This document shows positions 23,610 through 31,133 of a DNA stretch of 64,000 nucleotides, piece after piece. The stretch is from the NCBI RefSeq assembly GCF_019203965.1, contig NZ_CP076448.1, positions 2,495,001 to 2,559,000 of the forward strand. The letters run 5' to 3'. Numbering within the stretch: the first letter of the stretch is position 1; every line of letters starts with the position of its first letter. The notes beneath the pieces are model-generated. The model worked only from the letters and a program-made list of their open reading frames with translations. It did no database searches and was not told the origin of the DNA. Source of the stretch: Elioraea tepida. Its GTDB lineage: Bacteria; Pseudomonadota; Alphaproteobacteria; Acetobacterales; Acetobacteraceae. Both the position numbers and the translations under genes were made by a program.

Positions 23610-25004
23610 TCAGCCGAGCGGCGCGAGCGTTGGCGCGGCGCACGCCTGTTCGATCACCCGTGCGGCGGCGAGAGCGAGATCGTCGCGGTAGAGCGCGGCG
23701 GCAACCTGCACGCCGCGCGGCCGCCCTGCGGCGTCAAGCCCGACCGGCACGGCGACCGCGGGCTGGCGCGAGAGGTTGAAGGTGAAGGTCCAGGGCGCCC
23801 AGCGCTGCCAGAGGTCCTCCTCGGGTGCGATGAGAGTCGCGTCCGCCGGGAGCGCCGGCTCCGGAACGGCAGGACAGAGCACCAGATCGTAACGACGATG
23901 GAACGCCGCCATCGCATGCGCAGTCTCGATCACCGCCGCCTGGACGGCGAGGAAGCTCTCGGCATCCATCGGCTCCGTGCGTTGCGCCATCGCGACGAGC
24001 GGAGGGTCAAGCAGGGCGCGTTTCTCTTCTGGAAAGGAGTCGACCAGACGCTTCAGCGCCTGGCCCCATACGGCGGTGAACAGGGCGCGCGTGTCGGGCA
24101 GCGACGGATCGGCCTCCGTCACGATCGCGCCGGCGTCCTCGAGCGCGCGGGCGGCACGCTCGACGGCAGCGAGCGCTCCTTCGTCCGCAGGCGGGTGGAA
24201 CCCGAGGCGCCGCACCACCGCGACCTGGAGCCCCGCCACACCGTTCTGCCACCGATCCAGCCAGCCTGGCACCGGGTCGGGAAGGCAGAACGGGTCGCGC
24301 CAGTCGAAGCGGCTCATGACGGCAAGCATCAGGGCCGCGTCCTCGACCGTGCGCGTCATCGGGCCGGCCACCGCGACCTGGGCGAAGGCGCCGAGCGGCC
24401 ATTGCGGCACCCTGCCGAAGCTCGGCTTGACCCCGACGATGCCGCACCACGAGGCCGGGATCCGGATCGAGCCGCCGGCATCCGTGCCGATATGCAACGG
24501 ACCATAGCCTGCCGCTGCCGCCGCACCGGCTCCCGACGAGGAGCCTCCCGGTGTTAGGCGCGTGTTCCACGGGTTGCGCGTAATCCCGTGCAGCGGGCAA
24601 TCGCCTGGGGATTTCCAGCCGAATTCGGTGGTCGTCGTCTTGCCGAGGATGACGACGCCTGCCGCCTTGAGGCCGACGACCGCCGGGCTGTCGTCCGCCA
24701 CCGGCTGGGGATCGGTCGCGCGGCTGCCGCGTCGGGTCGGGTGGCCCGCGAGGTTCAGGAGGTCCTTCACCGTGGCGGGAACGCCGTCGAGCGGGGAGAG
24801 CGGCCTGCCTGCCCACCAGCGACGTTCGCTCTCCGCCGCCGCCCCCATCGCGCCCTCCGCGTCGACCACGGCCATCGCATTCAGCACCGGCTCGAGCCGG
24901 GCGATCCGGTCAAGGCAGGCGCGCGTGACCTCGCGTGGCGAGAGCGTTCCGCGCGCGTAGCGGGAGGCAAGGTCGGCGGCGCTGAGCGTTGCGGCGTCGC
25001 TCAT
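23610..25004 (-). CDS. Amidase (amidase-signature family)
   Basis: 464 residues. The Ser-cisSer-Lys triad is K80 (VPATVKDLL), S155 (TPGGSSSGAG) and S179 (TDAGGSIRIPA). These enzymes hydrolyse amides to acid and ammonia. The ATG overlaps the nitrile hydratase stop as ATGA, so the two are translationally coupled. This is the classical two-step route nitrile to amide to carboxylic acid. A GatA role is unlikely because no gatB or gatC is adjacent and the context differs. Cytosolic, no signal peptide. Confidence 0.92.
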   Translation of the reverse strand: MSDAATLSAADLASRYARGTLSPREVTRACLDRIARLEPVLNAMAVVDAEGAMGAAAESERRWWAGRPLSPLDGVPATVKDLLNLAGHPTRRGSRATDPQPVADDSPAVVGLKAAGVVILGKTTTTEFGWKSPGDCPLHGITRNPWNTRLTPGGSSSGAGAAAAAGYGPLHIGTDAGGSIRIPASWCGIVGVKPSFGRVPQWPLGAFAQVAVAGPMTRTVEDAALMLAVMSRFDWRDPFCLPDPVPGWLDRWQNGVAGLQVAVVRRLGFHPPADEGALAAVERAARALEDAGAIVTEADPSLPDTRALFTAVWGQALKRLVDSFPEEKRALLDPPLVAMAQRTEPMDAESFLAVQAAVIETAHAMAAFHRRYDLVLCPAVPEPALPADATLIAPEEDLWQRWAPWTFTFNLSRQPAVAVPVGLDAAGRPRGVQVAAALYRDDLALAAARVIEQACAAPTLAPLG

Positions 25005-26002
25005 GACGCCTCCACGGAGGAAGGATCGCGGGCGCGGGCGACGCCGATCATGCTGTCACGGCTCACGAGCAGGGCGAGGCGCTGGTCGCTCCAGCCCTCC
25101 GTGCCGGCGGGGCGCTCGGGGATCACGAGATAGCGGTTCTCGGCGGTGCTGTCATGCACCCTGACCTCGACCTCGTCCGGCAGCCTGAGGCCAAACTCGG
25201 CGAGGACGGCGCGGGGTTCGCGCACGGCGCGGGCGCGATAGGCGCGGCTCTTGTACCAGGCAGGCGGCCGGCCGAGCACGCTGCGCGGGTAGCACGAGCA
25301 GAGCATGCAGACGACGAGATGGTGCAGCCGCTCGGTGTTGAAGAGGGCTGCAAGCCGCGTTCCCGTGACCGGGATGCCGAGACCCTCCGCGGCGGCGTTT
25401 CCGTCACGCGCGAGCAGGGCTGCGAAGGCGGGGTCGGTCCAGGCGCGGGCGACGATCCGCGCGCCGAGATGCTCGCCGCGCCCGTCCATCCGCTCGATCT
25501 CGGCCGTGATCTCCTCGCGCGCGATGATCCCGTGCGCGACCAGCCGCTCGCGCACCGCGATCGCGCGCAGCCGGAGCGGCGAGAGCACAGTCTCGGCCGC
25601 GTCATGATCGGGCTGGTGCACGTGATCGTGGTCGTTGTCGTTGTCGTGATCCTGGTCATGAGGGTGCTCGGGAACGAGATGCGCTCCCGCCGCTACCAGA
25701 CGTTCGGTCTCCTCGGCGATTTCCGCCTCGGTCAGCACCCCCTTCTCCACGAGCAGCGCCGAGAAGGCGGCGATCCAGCGCTCGTAGTAGGGCAGGCTCC
25801 AGTAGGTCGCGTCGTCGAGCTGTTCCTGAATGCGGCGCGTCTCGTCGGTGGTGAAGAAGCCGCGCTTGGCGTCGGCGAGAAGCATGCGGATCGCATCCGC
25901 CTCCTTCTCCCAGTGCGCGTAGTCGTGTTCGTCGCGCTCGATCGCGCCGCCGGCGAGACCGCCAATGTCGTGCGGGCCGCTGCGTTCGGGGAGGGGCTGC
26001 AT
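25001..26002 (-). CDS. Nitrile hydratase: beta N-terminal domain fused to alpha subunit
   Basis: 333 residues. Residues 10-105 match the N-terminal helical part of the beta subunit (HDIGGLAGGAIERDEHDYAH, WEKEADAI, SLPYYERWIAAF). Residues 113-134 are a linker with 7 His and 8 Asp. Residues 140-325 are an alpha subunit with the metal claw VCMLCSC (C232, C235, C237), PPAWYKSRAYRARAV, RPAGTEGWS and RDSMIGVA. The enzyme hydrates nitriles to amides using Co(III) or Fe(III). The claw has Met where Thr or Ser is usual, and the beta C-terminal barrel is missing. The start at 26002 has AAGGAG nine bases upstream. It is coupled to the amidase; no activator gene is seen nearby. A thiocyanate-hydrolase-like activity is an alternative. 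Confidence 0.88.
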   Translation of the reverse strand: MQPLPERSGPHDIGGLAGGAIERDEHDYAHWEKEADAIRMLLADAKRGFFTTDETRRIQEQLDDATYWSLPYYERWIAAFSALLVEKGVLTEAEIAEETERLVAAGAHLVPEHPHDQDHDNDNDHDHVHQPDHDAAETVLSPLRLRAIAVRERLVAHGIIAREEITAEIERMDGRGEHLGARIVARAWTDPAFAALLARDGNAAAEGLGIPVTGTRLAALFNTERLHHLVVCMLCSCYPRSVLGRPPAWYKSRAYRARAVREPRAVLAEFGLRLPDEVEVRVHDSTAENRYLVIPERPAGTEGWSDQRLALLVSRDSMIGVARARDPSSVEAS

Positions 26003-26085
26003 CCTTCGGGGCTCCTTCGGCTCGGTCTCGACAGCGGCGCGGTGGGGCGGCAGTGTGCACGGGAACAATGTCGGGAAGGTCGGCG

Positions 26086-27072
26086 ATGAAGGCAATCGGT
26101 CGGCGCGCGGTGCTTGCGATCATGGCAGGCGTCCTCGGTTCTGGAGCGGCCAGTGCCCAGGCCTGGCCGGAGCGTGACCTCAGGCTCGTGGTTCCCTTCC
26201 CGCCCGGAGGAACGACAGACGTGGTCGCGCGTCTGCTCGCCGAGGCGCTTCGGGCCGAGCTCGGCCGGGCGGTGGTGGTGGAGAACCAGCCGGGGGCTGG
26301 GGCGACGCTTGCGGCCGGCCGATTTGCGGCGCAGCCGGCGGACGGGCACAGCCTGTTCCTGAGCCAGATCGCCTCGCACGGCATCGGGCCGGCGCTTTAT
26401 CGCAACCTTCCCTATGACGCCCGGGCGGATTTCCGCGCAGTCGCGCTGGTCGTGACCGTGCCGAACGTCTGGGTGGCGAACCCTCGCCGGCTCGCAGGCC
26501 GGGACGTCCGCGCCCTGCTGCGCGACGCGCGCGCGGCGGACGCCATCACCTTCGCTTCCGCCGGCAACGGCACGAGCACGCATCTGACGGGCGAGCTGAT
26601 CAACCTGCTTGCGGGAACGCGCATGGTGCACGTTCCCTATCGCGGCGCTGGCCCCGGGATGACGGCCGTGATCAGCGGCGAGGTCGATACCTTCATCGAC
26701 AACCTGCCCACCGCCCTGCCGCAGATCCGTGCCGGCACCGTCACCGCTCTCGCCGTGACGGCAGCGGAGCGCGTGCCGGAGCTGCCCGATGTGCCGACCC
26801 TTGCCGAGCTCGGGCCCGAATTCGGCCTCCAGGGCGTCGAGGCGGAAGCGTGGTTCGGCCTCTCGACGCACAAGGGAACGCCGGATTCGGTGGTGGCGGC
26901 GATGAACCGCGCGGTGAACGCTGCGCTCGCTCGCCCGGAGCTGCGCGCGGCGCTCGCCGAGCGCGGCACCGTCCCGCGCGGCGGCACGGCGGAGGCCTAC
27001 GCCGCCCTGATCGATCGCGAGCTTGCGCGCTGGGCGCGCGTCGTCGCCGAGGCCAAGGTGACGGTGAACTGA
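26086..27072 (+). CDS. Bug-family (TctC) tripartite tricarboxylate transporter substrate-binding protein
   Basis: 328 residues with a signal peptide (KAIGRRAVLAIMAGVLGSG, cleavage near SAQA). The mature N-terminus WPERDLRLVVPFPPGGTTDV and the ENQPGAGATLAAG block are diagnostic of periplasmic Bug receptors, which bind carboxylates, amides or other small polar ligands and feed TctAB-type permeases. No tctA or tctB is adjacent, as is common for this family. ATG 26086 is chosen (GGAAGG upstream, start of the signal peptide) over GTG 26053 and ATG 26068. It is divergent from the nitrile hydratase gene with 83 bases between starts, so shared control is likely. Confidence 0.93.
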   Translation: MKAIGRRAVLAIMAGVLGSGAASAQAWPERDLRLVVPFPPGGTTDVVARLLAEALRAELGRAVVVENQPGAGATLAAGRFAAQPADGHSLFLSQIASHGIGPALYRNLPYDARADFRAVALVVTVPNVWVANPRRLAGRDVRALLRDARAADAITFASAGNGTSTHLTGELINLLAGTRMVHVPYRGAGPGMTAVISGEVDTFIDNLPTALPQIRAGTVTALAVTAAERVPELPDVPTLAELGPEFGLQGVEAEAWFGLSTHKGTPDSVVAAMNRAVNAALARPELRAALAERGTVPRGGTAEAYAALIDRELARWARVVAEAKVTVN

Positions 27073-27088
27073 ACGACGGAGCGGGCCG

Positions 27089-27781
27089 ATGACGGACAAG
27101 ATCGCGCGGTGGCAGGGAACCATTCCGGAGGCAGACCTCGCCGCCTACCGCAAGGGCTCGTTCGGAAGGCGGATCGGGCTCGGTGACCGGCCGGCCCTGC
27201 TCAACGTCGACACGACCTATATGTTCGTCGATCCGGCCTACGACATGTGCGGCGGCCCGATGCCCGAGCTGATCGCCGCGGTGACGCGCATGACCGAGCT
27301 GTTCCGCCGGCTCGGCCTGCCGATCTACTACTCGCGGCGGGACGACCGCAGCCACCCCACCTATCGCGGCATCTGGAACCTCAAGCTCGGCAACGCCACC
27401 GAGTTCCAGTATGTCGCCGACCCGAGGGCCGACCAGTGGCCGGAGGCCTATGCCCCGCGCCGCGAGGACCGAATCATCCTCAAGAACAAGCCTTCTGCCT
27501 TCTTCGCGACACCGCTCGAGAGCTTCCTCCGCTATGACGGGGTGGACAGCCTCGTCGTGATCGGTGTGTCGACCTCGGGCTGCGTGCGAGCGGCGGTGAC
27601 GGATGCGTTCTCGCACAATTTCCGCGTCACCGTGGTCGAGGAGGCGGTAGGGGACCGCAGCCCGTCCGCGCATGTCGCGAACCTGTTCGACATGGACATG
27701 AAGTTCGCCGATGTCGAGAAGCTCGAGACGGTCGCCGCTGAGCTCGAGGCGCGGTTCGGCCGCCGCGCCGCTGCAGAGTGA
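27089..27781 (+). CDS. Isochorismatase-like cysteine hydrolase
   Basis: 230 residues. The Asp-Lys-Cys triad is visible: D41 in LLNVDTTYMFVD, K134 in ILKNKPSAFF and C165 in IGVSTSGCVRAAV. This superfamily includes N-carbamoylsarcosine amidohydrolase, ureidoacrylate hydrolase and nicotinamidase, which cleave amide or carbamoyl groups. It starts 16 bases after the Bug receptor gene and is followed directly by a deacetylase-fold gene, so all three form one operon. The likely substrate is an amide or carbamoyl compound brought in by the receptor; this is inference. Confidence 0.88.
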   Translation: MTDKIARWQGTIPEADLAAYRKGSFGRRIGLGDRPALLNVDTTYMFVDPAYDMCGGPMPELIAAVTRMTELFRRLGLPIYYSRRDDRSHPTYRGIWNLKLGNATEFQYVADPRADQWPEAYAPRREDRIILKNKPSAFFATPLESFLRYDGVDSLVVIGVSTSGCVRAAVTDAFSHNFRVTVVEEAVGDRSPSAHVANLFDMDMKFADVEKLETVAAELEARFGRRAAAE

Positions 27782-27785
27782 GGTG

Positions 27786-28712
27786 ATGAGCGACGCGCCC
27801 GAGGCGGAGCAGCCGCTGAAGCCCTGGCAGTGGCCGGAGCAGAGGTGGCGCGAGATCGTGTCGCGCGCGCGGGCCGGGCGCTCGCTCAAGCCGAGAAGCT
27901 GGCCAGGCGGAGCGCGCTGCGCTGTCGCACTCTCTTTCGACGCCGATCACGAGACGATCCCGCTCCGCGACGCTGACGAGAGCCCGATGCGGATCAGCCA
28001 GGGTCAGTATGGCGCGCGCGCGGCGATGCCGCGGATCCGGCGCCTGCTCGATCGCCACGGGGTGCGCGCGACGTTCTTCTACCCGGCCGTCTCGGCTCTG
28101 CTTCACCCGGACGAGGTGCGCGCGCTCGCCGACGAGGGACACGAGATCGGGATCCATTCCTGGATCCATGAGGCGAACACCACCCTGCCGCCCGAAGCCG
28201 AGCGGGAGCTCACCTTACGCGCGGCCGACACGCTTGAGCGGGTGAGCGGCCAGCGCCCCGTCGGCCTGCGCACGGCGAGCTGGGACTTCTCGCCGCATAC
28301 GCTCGACATCATCCGCGGGCTCGGCCTCGTCTACGACAGCTCGCTGATGGCGGACGACGACCCCTACGAGCTGACCGACCGGGGAGAGCCAACGGGCATC
28401 GTCGAGCTGCCGCCGGAGTGGATCCGCGACGATGCCGTCTATTTCAACATGCTCCGCTTCTCGGCGCTTCGGCCCTACACACCGCCTTCGGCGGTGGAGG
28501 AGATCTTCACCGCAGAGTTCGAGGGCGCGTATGAGGAGGGCGGGCTGTTCCTGCTCACGATGCACCCGCACGTGATCGGCCATCGCTCGCGCCTGCCGCT
28601 GCTCGAGCGGCTGATTGCCCGCATGAAGGGCAGGCCGGGCGTGTGGTTCGGCACGCACGCCGAGGTCGCACGCTGGTGCGCCGAGCAGGCTACGCCGCCG
28701 CTCAAGCGCTAG
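27786..28712 (+). CDS. Polysaccharide deacetylase family protein (PuuE-like)
   Basis: 308 residues of NodB-homology fold. The metal triad is present: the Asp pair in SFDADHET (D52, D54) and the histidines in EIGIHSWIHE (H124, H128). No signal peptide is present, so it is cytosolic, unlike true polysaccharide deacetylases. Cytosolic members next to amidohydrolases are often ureide or purine-catabolic enzymes such as PuuE allantoinase. The start codon follows the preceding stop by four bases (TGA, then GTG and ATG), indicating a shared transcript with the cysteine hydrolase and the Bug receptor. Confidence 0.87.
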   Translation: MSDAPEAEQPLKPWQWPEQRWREIVSRARAGRSLKPRSWPGGARCAVALSFDADHETIPLRDADESPMRISQGQYGARAAMPRIRRLLDRHGVRATFFYPAVSALLHPDEVRALADEGHEIGIHSWIHEANTTLPPEAERELTLRAADTLERVSGQRPVGLRTASWDFSPHTLDIIRGLGLVYDSSLMADDDPYELTDRGEPTGIVELPPEWIRDDAVYFNMLRFSALRPYTPPSAVEEIFTAEFEGAYEEGGLFLLTMHPHVIGHRSRLPLLERLIARMKGRPGVWFGTHAEVARWCAEQATPPLKR

Positions 28713-28852
28713 AATAGATCGCATCCGGCTGGAGATAGCCGTGCGCGTGAAGATGCTCGCAGTACACGGCGAGCGCGGTGTCCACTGATTTGGCAACCGC
28801 TCTGGCGCCCGAGGGCCGATGACTGCTGCGCCGCTGCCGCGGCATCGCTCGG

Positions 28853-30427
28853 CTACGCCTGCGCGACCGCACCGCTCCAGGGGGTCATCACGTCGCTCAC
28901 TCCGGTCACGGAGCCGTCGGCCTCGCGCACGATCAGGTTCGGGCAGGCGAAATTCACCGGCAGCACCGTGTGCTCGACCAGATCGGTCGTGAACCGTTCC
29001 GCAAGTGCGGCGAGGATCGCGGGCGCAAGCCGCCTGTCGGCCGTGACGGTATCGGGGCCGGAGACGTCGATCCTCGGGTGGTGTGCGGCCGCCACCGGGT
29101 CCATCCCGTACTCGAGCAGAAACAGGAGCACCTGCAGCACCGAGGCGAGGATCCTGCGCCCGCCGGAGGCGCCGGCGGCGATGATCGGCCGGCCATTCTC
29201 GGCCACGATCACCGGGCTCATGTTGCACAGCGGCCGCTTCGATGGGCCGATGCTGTTCGGCCGCCCGGGCCTCGGGTCGAACCAGAACACGCCGTTGTTC
29301 ATCAGAATCCCCGTGCCCGGTAGCACCACCCGGCTTCCCATCGAGGACAGAAGCGTGGTCGTGACCGAGACCATCGTGCCTTCGGAGTCCACGGCGGTGA
29401 GGTGCGTGGTGCAGGCCTCGGCCGCGCGCGGGTTGGCGTCGGACACATCGCCGAGCCCGGCGAGACGCTCGGCATAGGCCGCCTGCATCGCCGCCGCGAA
29501 GGCGGTGAAGAAGGCGGCATCGGGTTCGGCGCCGAAGGCATGGCCCGCGAGCTCGTCGAGCACGCGCTGCATGGTCGGCGCCGCCGTCAGCCCGCCGGCG
29601 CCCTGGATCACGCGTCCCCGCCAGGGATGAGGGCTCGCGGCCGTGGTGCGGGCGGTGCAGCGGGCGAGATCGGCCGCCGATAGCACGCCTCCCATCGCCG
29701 CGACATCCGCCACGATCGAGGCGGCAATGTCGCCGCGATAGAAATCCACCACCCCGGTCTCGGCGAGGCGCGCGAGCGTCTCGGGCAGCCGGCCGAGGAT
29801 GAGGCGCTTCGCTGGCCCGACATAGGGCGGTGTCGGGGGCAGGCCGTCGGGCAGGAAGATCCGCGCGCTCTCCGGGTAGCGCCGCAGGTCGGCCGCCGAG
29901 GAGGCGATCTTCAGAGCGCCAAACCAGTCGGCCGGGAGGCCTGCCTTCGCGAGTGCCACGGCCGGAGCGAGCACGTCCTTCCACGGCAGCCGCCCGCCCA
30001 TCGCATGCAGCGCAGCATAGCCCGCCGGCGCCGAGGGGATGACGAAGGAGAGCGGGCCGTGCACGTTCCTCTCCTCGACCACGTTCGGCCAGGCGAACAG
30101 ATGCTCCGACACGCCCTCGCCGAGCGGGAACAGCTCGGGCCTCAGGCCTGCCGGGGAGACCGGCCCGAAATCGACCACGGTCGCTTCGCGTTCCCCGGCC
30201 CTATGCACGACCGCGAAGCCGATGCCGCCGAGGCCGCTGTTCCAGGGCTCGAGCGCAGAGAGGGCGAAGGCTGTGGCGGCGGCGGCATCGAGCGCGGTTC
30301 CGCCCGCCTCGAGCATCGCCACACCTGCCTCCGCTGCCGCCTTGACCTGCGACACCACCATGCCCTTCCGGCCGAAGGTTGCAGGCTTGGCCACCACCCA
30401 ATTCTGCGTCTGATGCGCGATCGCCAT
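28853..30427 (-). CDS. Gamma-glutamyltransferase family protein
   Basis: 524 residues, slightly short for GGT. The autoprocessing threonine is in CTTHLTAVDSEGT (T340, start of the small subunit). Other markers are the N-terminal GMVVSQVKAAAEAGVAMLEAGG block, GSRVVLPGTGILMNN and AAGASGGRRI. Ntn-hydrolases of this family cleave gamma-glutamyl or related amide bonds. No signal peptide is visible, unlike periplasmic E. coli GGT, so an intracellular acylase-like role is possible. ATG 30427 is preceded by GGAGG at nine bases. It is convergent with the deacetylase gene. Confidence 0.88.
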   Translation of the reverse strand: MAIAHQTQNWVVAKPATFGRKGMVVSQVKAAAEAGVAMLEAGGTALDAAAATAFALSALEPWNSGLGGIGFAVVHRAGEREATVVDFGPVSPAGLRPELFPLGEGVSEHLFAWPNVVEERNVHGPLSFVIPSAPAGYAALHAMGGRLPWKDVLAPAVALAKAGLPADWFGALKIASSAADLRRYPESARIFLPDGLPPTPPYVGPAKRLILGRLPETLARLAETGVVDFYRGDIAASIVADVAAMGGVLSAADLARCTARTTAASPHPWRGRVIQGAGGLTAAPTMQRVLDELAGHAFGAEPDAAFFTAFAAAMQAAYAERLAGLGDVSDANPRAAEACTTHLTAVDSEGTMVSVTTTLLSSMGSRVVLPGTGILMNNGVFWFDPRPGRPNSIGPSKRPLCNMSPVIVAENGRPIIAAGASGGRRILASVLQVLLFLLEYGMDPVAAAHHPRIDVSGPDTVTADRRLAPAILAALAERFTTDLVEHTVLPVNFACPNLIVREADGSVTGVSDVMTPWSGAVAQA

Positions 30428-31133
30428 CCAGTCGGTCCTCCGCTCGCACCTGCGCGGGCAGTGTGCGCCGGCACGATCACGGCGTGAAGCGGCAGCCTTC
30501 GTCACTGCGGGAGAGGGAGAGTCGCGATCGGCACGCATTTGCGCTTGAGACGTGCGGCGCGCCGCACGGCTTCAGAAAGGCGTCGCCGCCCCCTCACTCC
30601 GCCGAGGAAGGAGGAAGCCGACATTGACCGGTCAGGCCTCCGGGAAAGCGACGATCGAGGCTGTCAGCTTCACGCCACCCGGCGCGAGGGAGAGCGGCGG
30701 AAATCGTCAACCGGTTTCGGTCTGCCGGTCAGCGTGTCCGGCCACTCCGCCTCGCCGTGGTTGGTTGCGCGCCCCGGTCGGAGGCGAGCGGGTTCGGAAA
30801 ACGTCAGATCGACACCTCCGCGCGCCCGCGCTCCGCAGTGCCGTTGACGACGGATGTGCCCCGCCGCCTTTCGGGCCTCGACGTCTGCGACCTTCCTGCG
30901 CAGGGCGTTGACGTCGCGCCCGTCATCACCGGCCGTCTCCTTTCGCTCCGTCTCGACGCACCGTCGCGGCCGCGCAAGCGCTCTCGAGGGATGCAGGGAC
31001 TTCCCGGCAGAAGGTGCCGGCAGGCAGGGAAGGGGCCAGCGACACGGCAGGATCTGCCGCGTCATTAACCTTTGCTTCACTGACCGTGGCCTACGGTCTC
31101 CCCGTCACGGACGTGGACGGAGAGCCGGCCACC
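30428..31133. other. Large intergenic region with an 18-bp palindrome
   Basis: 706 bases between the divergent GGT and protease genes without a convincing gene. Several open frames cross it, but all have arginine- and proline-rich, shadow-like translations. The one clear structure is the perfect palindrome at 30551-30568. Around 31060-31080 the sequence GTCATTAACCTTTGCTTCAC is AT-richer and may hold the protease promoter, though I cannot assign -35 and -10 boxes with confidence. Confidence 0.5.
30551..30568. repeat. Perfect 18-bp palindrome
   Basis: CGTGCGGCGCGCCGCACG is its own reverse complement. It lies about 124 bases upstream of the GGT start codon and about 566 bases upstream of the protease start. 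It could be a dimeric-regulator operator for the GGT gene or a transcript hairpin. Its high GC makes chance formation more likely in this genome, so confidence in function is low. Confidence 0.35.

Follow-up and report, generated by a model that had tools for sequence, protein, structure and literature searches.

A betaN-alpha nitrile hydratase fusion in Elioraea tepida and a remote barrel gene that probably completes it in trans

Two gene arrangements are described for bacterial nitrile hydratases (NHases), an alpha/beta gene pair and a set of three genes encoded together. In the NHase of Streptomyces canus, the genes anhD-anhE-anhA follow the order betaN-betaC-alpha, where betaN and betaC are the N- and C-terminal parts of a split beta subunit, and no activator gene was found there (PMC7329996). 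The toyocamycin NHase of Streptomyces rimosus has three subunits in an (alpha-beta-gamma)2 assembly. Fusion NHases of the Monosiga brevicollis type, described from eukaryotes with both subunits complete, carry the beta part before alpha (excerpts of PMC2603476 and PMC3323583), and the latter excerpt, from 2012, states that prokaryotic data sets contain no beta-alpha fusions. Here we analyze a stretch of 64,000 nucleotides of Elioraea tepida (contig NZ_CP076448.1, positions 2,495,001 to 2,559,000 of the forward strand; hereafter the window), in which a single gene at 25001-26002 on the minus strand encodes betaN and alpha in one chain. The beta C-terminal barrel is encoded by a separate gene far outside the window, and we consider it probable that the products of these two distant loci form a split NHase assembled in trans.

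The open reading frame (ORF) at 25001-26002 starts with ATG, contains no internal stop, and is translated into 333 residues. The NHase beta N-terminal domain covers residues 9-113 (25664-25978; Pfam PF21006 NHase_beta_N, E 3.5e-23) and is followed by a His/Asp-rich linker containing EHPHDQDHDNDNDHDHVHQPDHD (residues 114-143, 25574-25663) and by the alpha domain (residues 144-322, 25037-25573; PF02979 NHase_alpha, E 2.8e-75; best E to PDB chains 1.4e-59), all on the minus strand. The only cysteines of the chain, C232, C235, and C237, lie in the metal claw C232-M-L-C235-S-C237 (25292-25309, minus strand; translation, PDB alignment, and claw comparison), giving the NHase alpha fold its CxxCSC motif. 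In the betaN domain, R56 (25835-25837, minus strand) aligns with the active-site residue R52 of the Pseudomonas putida NHase beta subunit in the 3qxe_B alignment (position counted by hand). The translation and the Pfam matches thus agree with the original prediction, made from the DNA letters alone, of a single chain with betaN, a His/Asp-rich linker, and alpha. It had also placed no barrel gene in the window, correctly, and the fusion chain itself gives no Pfam match to NHase_beta_C. A frameshift or assembly error hiding a barrel, which the prediction had considered, is spoken against by seven relatives that are colinear with the fusion at 65-79% identity (from Elioraea, Falsiroseomonas, Roseomonas, and one Acetobacteraceae metagenome-assembled genome). 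Moreover, a barrel gene would not fit into this locus, since an amidase gene overlaps the fusion stop and a divergent gene begins at 26053.

An AlphaFold2 model of the fusion, built with the seven relatives, is of low confidence (mean predicted local distance difference test score 58.8, predicted template modeling score 0.54); viral contigs were scanned for relatives to deepen the alignment, and none were found. In a structure comparison of this model, the alpha part matches NHase alpha with Z scores of 11.3-12.6 (VIA), while NHase beta chains reach Z scores of only 5.3-5.8, in a region (model residues 64-175) that extends from betaN across the linker into alpha. The betaN assignment therefore rests on sequence rather than on the structure model. 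Residues 251-302 of the alpha part (25097-25252) also score just below the cut-off of the NHLP leader-peptide family TIGR03793 (48.9 versus 50.9 bits).

The genome of E. tepida (G000) is a single contig of 3.37 Mb, 98% complete. Profile searches of it for NHase domains, with E values up to 10, give a single match to NHase_beta_C, at G000:C1:205159-205449 (Pfam E 1.8e-17 on the ORF), so that the genome-wide search proposed in the original prediction does find one stand-alone beta C-terminal domain. The only NHase_beta_N match is the fusion, and NHase_alpha exceeds the cut-off only in the fusion frame; a single weak match with E 0.03 adjoins the barrel. Fusion and barrel lie 2.31 Mb from each other, a gap that shrinks to 1.05 Mb in the opposite direction should the contig be circular. 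The barrel ORF can start with an ATG or, at the start site of the relatives, with a GTG (C1:205156-205461, 101 residues). R109 of the barrel protein (P0002), in the motif H-F-R-T-P, aligns with R149 of P. putida NHase beta (counted by hand on the alignment), which we take to correspond to R157 in the numbering used below. Both arginines thus align with P. putida sites, and it follows that the fusion plus the barrel, and neither alone, rebuilds the known active site. In an excerpt of PMC7193024, beta R52 and R157 form salt bridges with the oxidized claw cysteines, and activity is lost in variants of beta R56.

The barrel gene is flanked, in order, by a gamma-glutamyltranspeptidase-family gene and an amidase gene on one side and by genes for an ABC receptor, two permeases, and two ATPases on the other. 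The gamma-glutamyltranspeptidase-family protein (L135:3787-5388 in the extracted barrel locus, assigned by Pfam) served as a comparison neighbor. At the syntenic place in three relatives, G045 and G125 of the same genus and G196, a betaN-betaC-alpha operon lies between the same neighbors, as judged by BLAST. Of this operon, betaN is not detectable at the barrel locus of E. tepida in the genome-wide NHase_beta_N search. Alignment to the relatives reveals a relic of alpha beside the barrel, in which the C-terminal end is clear, the first codons are perhaps present, and the claw is deleted; the weak alpha match noted above is the C-terminal part of this relic.

The relic provides a built-in control for selection on the barrel, in one genome and over about 130 codons. 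At residues where G045 and G125 agree, private changes are found at 15 of 31 positions in the relic and at 14 of 89 in the barrel (Fisher p 0.0005); where G196 agrees as well, the counts are 9/23 and 5/68 (p 0.0009). Among the columns conserved in at least 90% of the comparison rows, the relic is changed in 6 of 15 and the barrel in 1 of 21, by a V-to-I replacement; 5 of the 49 barrel rows in this comparison have the order alpha-betaN-betaC, and the rest are of the split type. The ratio of nonsynonymous to synonymous substitutions (dN/dS) of the barrel between G000 and G045 is 0.126/0.686. The alpha relic has decayed while the barrel has stayed conserved. The fusion is constrained as well: its dN/dS is 0.17 between G000 and G045 and 0.18 in the sister pair G045-G125, and only 1 of the 91 columns invariant in 21 other fusion rows is changed, those rows themselves showing 0 to 3 changes each. 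The suggestion in the original prediction of a split NHase whose third piece is encoded elsewhere is therefore supported by a remote barrel that keeps the second arginine and remains conserved beside a decayed alpha. Its other suggestion, altered chemistry, is conceivable but not needed, since the claw cysteines and R56 are present, though M233 departs from the T found in relatives.

The distribution of the fusion was surveyed in genome samples of the family, order, and class, each drawn from a larger group. Among 200 genomes of the family, betaN, betaC, and alpha each occur in 121. A match spanning both fusion domains is found in 25 of 395 genomes of the order, two of them starting at a contig start; the domain order that the original prediction proposed to look for is thus present in 24 genomes besides E. 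tepida. All of these but E. tepida have a second alpha match (24/25). In a search for the barrel (PF02211) covering 33 entries, equal to 30 distinct genomes because three pairs are identical by contigs and positions, exactly one barrel was found in 32 entries (29 of the 30 distinct fusion genomes). The sole entry lacking it, G412, has its operon on a contig that ends next to alpha. Where fusion and barrel share a contig (four genomes), their distance ranges from 77 kb to 2.3 Mb. No barrel was detected in 46 fusion loci (2.4 to 21 kb of DNA, several loci coming from the same genome) or in seven fusion loci of the other family described below. The search included G384, in which a partial fusion match (locus L101, residues 9-261) is accompanied by three alpha matches and possibly represents a broken fusion.

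In the class sample (385 genomes), further fusions occur, among the matches listed, only in G465, G596, and G693, of one other family. In G465 the single barrel is next to a betaN gene; G596 and G693 likewise have just one, as part of a split operon. The second claw residue is linked to the metal type of an NHase. The three genomes, which belong to one genus, hold two kinds of fusion (L164-L168), with the claws CSLCSC (three rows) and CTLCSC (two rows), which could be an Fe-type/Co-type pair. A candidate fusion in G648, of another family, was rejected, since betaN and alpha are encoded there by two ORFs. These ORFs (L169) are adjacent with no intervening barrel, and that genome has a complete split operon at another locus; the arrangement is possibly an intermediate before fusion.

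We propose the following working of the enzyme. The window gene would supply betaN and alpha in one chain, which carries the cysteine claw and R56 as the first of the two active-site arginines; the C-terminal barrel of beta, bearing the second arginine, would come from the barrel gene (G000:C1:205156-205461). The two products would bind to form a unit of alpha, betaN, and betaC, which probably dimerizes as other NHases do; such binding is suggested by gene content, constraint, and precedent. The claw CTLCSC in 29 of the 30 Acetobacteraceae fusion rows points to a Co-type-like enzyme, the E. tepida claw being CMLCSC. BetaN and the His-rich linker probably help in cobalt loading, because the genome showed no other betaN-like candidate for an activator. 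The amide product would then pass to the amidase of the overlapping gene. The S. canus enzyme offers the precedent: in excerpts of PMC7329996, with Holo-AnhDEA set at 100% activity, Holo-AnhEA has 4.17%, Holo-AnhDA, which lacks the barrel, has 0.21%, R-apo-AnhDA reaches 1.97% after cobalt reactivation, and AnhA alone has none. The same excerpts describe AnhD as a metal chaperone and AnhD2A as a chaperone for metal and subunit swapping. As an extension, a single barrel may serve both the split-operon betaN and alpha and the fusion in about 30 Acetobacteraceae genomes, with reciprocal gene loss having made the trans enzyme obligate in E. tepida; for this wider proposal we put the chances at slightly under even.

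Several observations weigh against assembly in trans. In the other genomes, the barrel has its own alpha, and sharing is not needed to explain its presence there. The selection test is weaker when codon positions 1 and 2 are compared with position 3 (p 0.03, or 0.23 including G196), and the barrel has evolved faster in E. tepida, with a branch dN of about 0.11 versus about 0.02 in the sisters (calculated by hand); the adjacent ABC receptor has a similarly faster branch ratio in this genome. The fusion does not reach the cut-off of the NCBIfam model for NHase alpha (TIGR01323, 235.2 versus 249.85 bits) or for NHase beta (TIGR03888, 73.4 versus 152.2 bits), the latter model covering a domain that the chain lacks. 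Its claw CMLCSC, with M at residue 233, differs from the CTLCSC that the other 29 Acetobacteraceae fusion rows share with the 50 split and 13 canonical rows of the comparison. The amidase is not a general neighbor, as none was found within 10 kb of the fusions in loci L007-L011. Finally, the alpha subunit ToyJ alone is reported to be sufficient for activity (Nelp 2014, cited in an excerpt of PMC7329996).

The report on ToyJ, together with the lack of a barrel at every fusion locus examined, would suit a barrel-free NHase, in which the fusion alone is the enzyme and the lone barrel is kept for some other reason or has not yet decayed. We regard this as unlikely, since the barrel is constrained while the adjoining relic has decayed, the AnhDA forms without a barrel retain at most the small activities given above, and the only fusion genome in which the barrel was missed is cut by a contig end. 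That the loci of both fusion and barrel are leftovers of a system being lost is scarcely credible. The alpha and betaN of the operon are already gone and M233 stands in the claw, but the dN/dS of the fusion is like that of its sisters, its one changed column falls within the 0 to 3 of the other rows, and the barrel retains 20 of its 21 conserved columns.

Two further explanations concern the function of the fused chain. It could be a metallochaperone, a stable alpha-betaN complex that passes cobalt on to the split-operon alpha. The His-rich linker fits this role, as does the presence of another alpha in 24 of the 25 fusion genomes; AnhD2A and alpha-activator complexes load cobalt (excerpt of PMC7329996), and engineered fusion NHases take up cobalt without subunit swapping (excerpt of PMC4709657). 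The idea is nonetheless improbable, because no other alpha is left in E. tepida, yet fusion and barrel are constrained, and because a fused alpha is unable to swap. More improbable still is a thiocyanate hydrolase-like enzyme, which would hydrolyze thiocyanate with the same split fold. The beta subunit of thiocyanate hydrolase is also split over two chains, the fusion matches its gamma (2dd4_C, E 1.7e-51) and beta (2dd4_B, E 6e-9) subunits, and the barrel matches its alpha subunit (2dd4_A, E 4.9e-5). On the other hand, the fusion scores 189.3 bits with the thiocyanate hydrolase model TIGR03887, whose cut-off is 291.45, against 235.2 with TIGR01323; the top PDB matches of both fusion and barrel are NHase chains, and an amidase adjoins the fusion. 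A "Solo-subunit NHase" of strain THI201 appears in an excerpt of PMC7193024, where the title of its reference names a thiocyanate-degrading enzyme, and was not used here. The split NHase assembled in trans thus remains the reading that we prefer.

Phylogenetic trees of alpha were calculated to examine the origin of the fusion; alpha pieces of up to 120 residues and duplicates were left out, and the trees contain no eukaryotic row. The Acetobacteraceae fusion alphas (30 rows) form one side of a branch with a support of 92 by the Shimodaira-Hasegawa-like approximate likelihood ratio test (SH-aLRT), and of 97 in a second tree. They fall among the split-operon alphas, and a canonical alpha-beta operon as the source of the fusion is therefore not favored. 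The fusion alphas of the other family (f26, five rows) form a group of their own (SH-aLRT 97). A constraint holding all 35 fusion rows together, examined without two long-branch rows, is not rejected (approximately unbiased test, p-AU 0.155), so that the fusions may have had one origin or two. Split operons of related genomes have the order betaN-betaC-alpha, and the split-operon alphas of G045, G125, and G196 begin with a His-rich stretch similar to the fusion linker. These two features suggest that the outer genes became fused when the one between them was lost. We infer that a paralogue of a betaN-betaC-alpha operon may have lost its middle gene, joining betaN to alpha, so that the fusion would have come to need the barrel of the operon that was still intact, and that in this Elioraea lineage the latter would then have been reduced to its barrel by loss of betaN and alpha.

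The neighborhood of the fusion fits uptake of a compound and its stepwise conversion from nitrile through amide to acid. The amidase gene (23610-25004, minus strand; Pfam Amidase, E 1.5e-90), which shares its first 4 bp (25001-25004) with the end of the fusion gene, likely encodes the next enzyme, converting the amide to the acid; an amidase also adjoins the fusion in two other Elioraea and in G196. The divergent gene (26053-27072, plus strand) encodes a TctC-type transport receptor by Pfam and adjoins most of the Acetobacteraceae fusions examined. It is followed by a gene for an isochorismatase-family hydrolase (27089-27781, plus strand; Pfam), which is found near many of the fusions. An amidase gene and a gamma-glutamyltranspeptidase-family gene occur both in the window at 23610-30538 and in the barrel locus (L135, 3787-12239), and the window holds isochorismatase- and polysaccharide-deacetylase-family genes besides; the two loci are perhaps amide-catabolic clusters of common history.

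The recurrence of the betaN-alpha fusion in one bacterial family, with no barrel at any fusion locus examined, extends the gene arrangements of bacterial NHases given at the outset. E. tepida is a natural knock-out of the operon betaN and alpha in which the barrel is kept. It thereby makes testable the need for the barrel in catalysis, the service of one barrel to two enzymes, and the replacement of an activator by a fused metal-loading pair, and the compact chain may be of use in NHase engineering. In the engineered P. putida fusion NHases, beta and alpha are likewise in one chain, but these are man-made by fusing the subunits (excerpt of PMC4709657). With the three-subunit NHases of S. canus and S. 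rimosus, whose three separate chains are encoded together, the present system shares, as in S. canus, a beta subunit split into N- and C-terminal parts, and related genomes share the S. canus gene order in their split operons. It differs from both in the joining of betaN and alpha in one chain and in the remote position of the barrel gene, which is accompanied by neither betaN nor an intact alpha. The thiocyanate hydrolase ScnABC of Thiobacillus thioparus also has its beta part over two chains, but as three separate chains, unlike the fusion. The likeness to the Monosiga fusion raised in the original prediction holds for the order of beta part and alpha, the His-rich linker, seen in opisthokonts, and the CxxCSC claw (excerpts of PMC2603476 and PMC3323583). 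It does not extend to a complete beta subunit in the chain, since the barrel is absent from the fusion, and the closest relatives found are bacterial fusions and three-gene split NHases. Searches of the open-licence PMC literature brought up no paper that deals with a betaN-alpha fusion in prokaryotes or with a barrel gene far from alpha. Fusion NHases of eukaryotes and three-subunit NHases are known, and what appears to be new here is a bacterial betaN-alpha fusion with a remote barrel.

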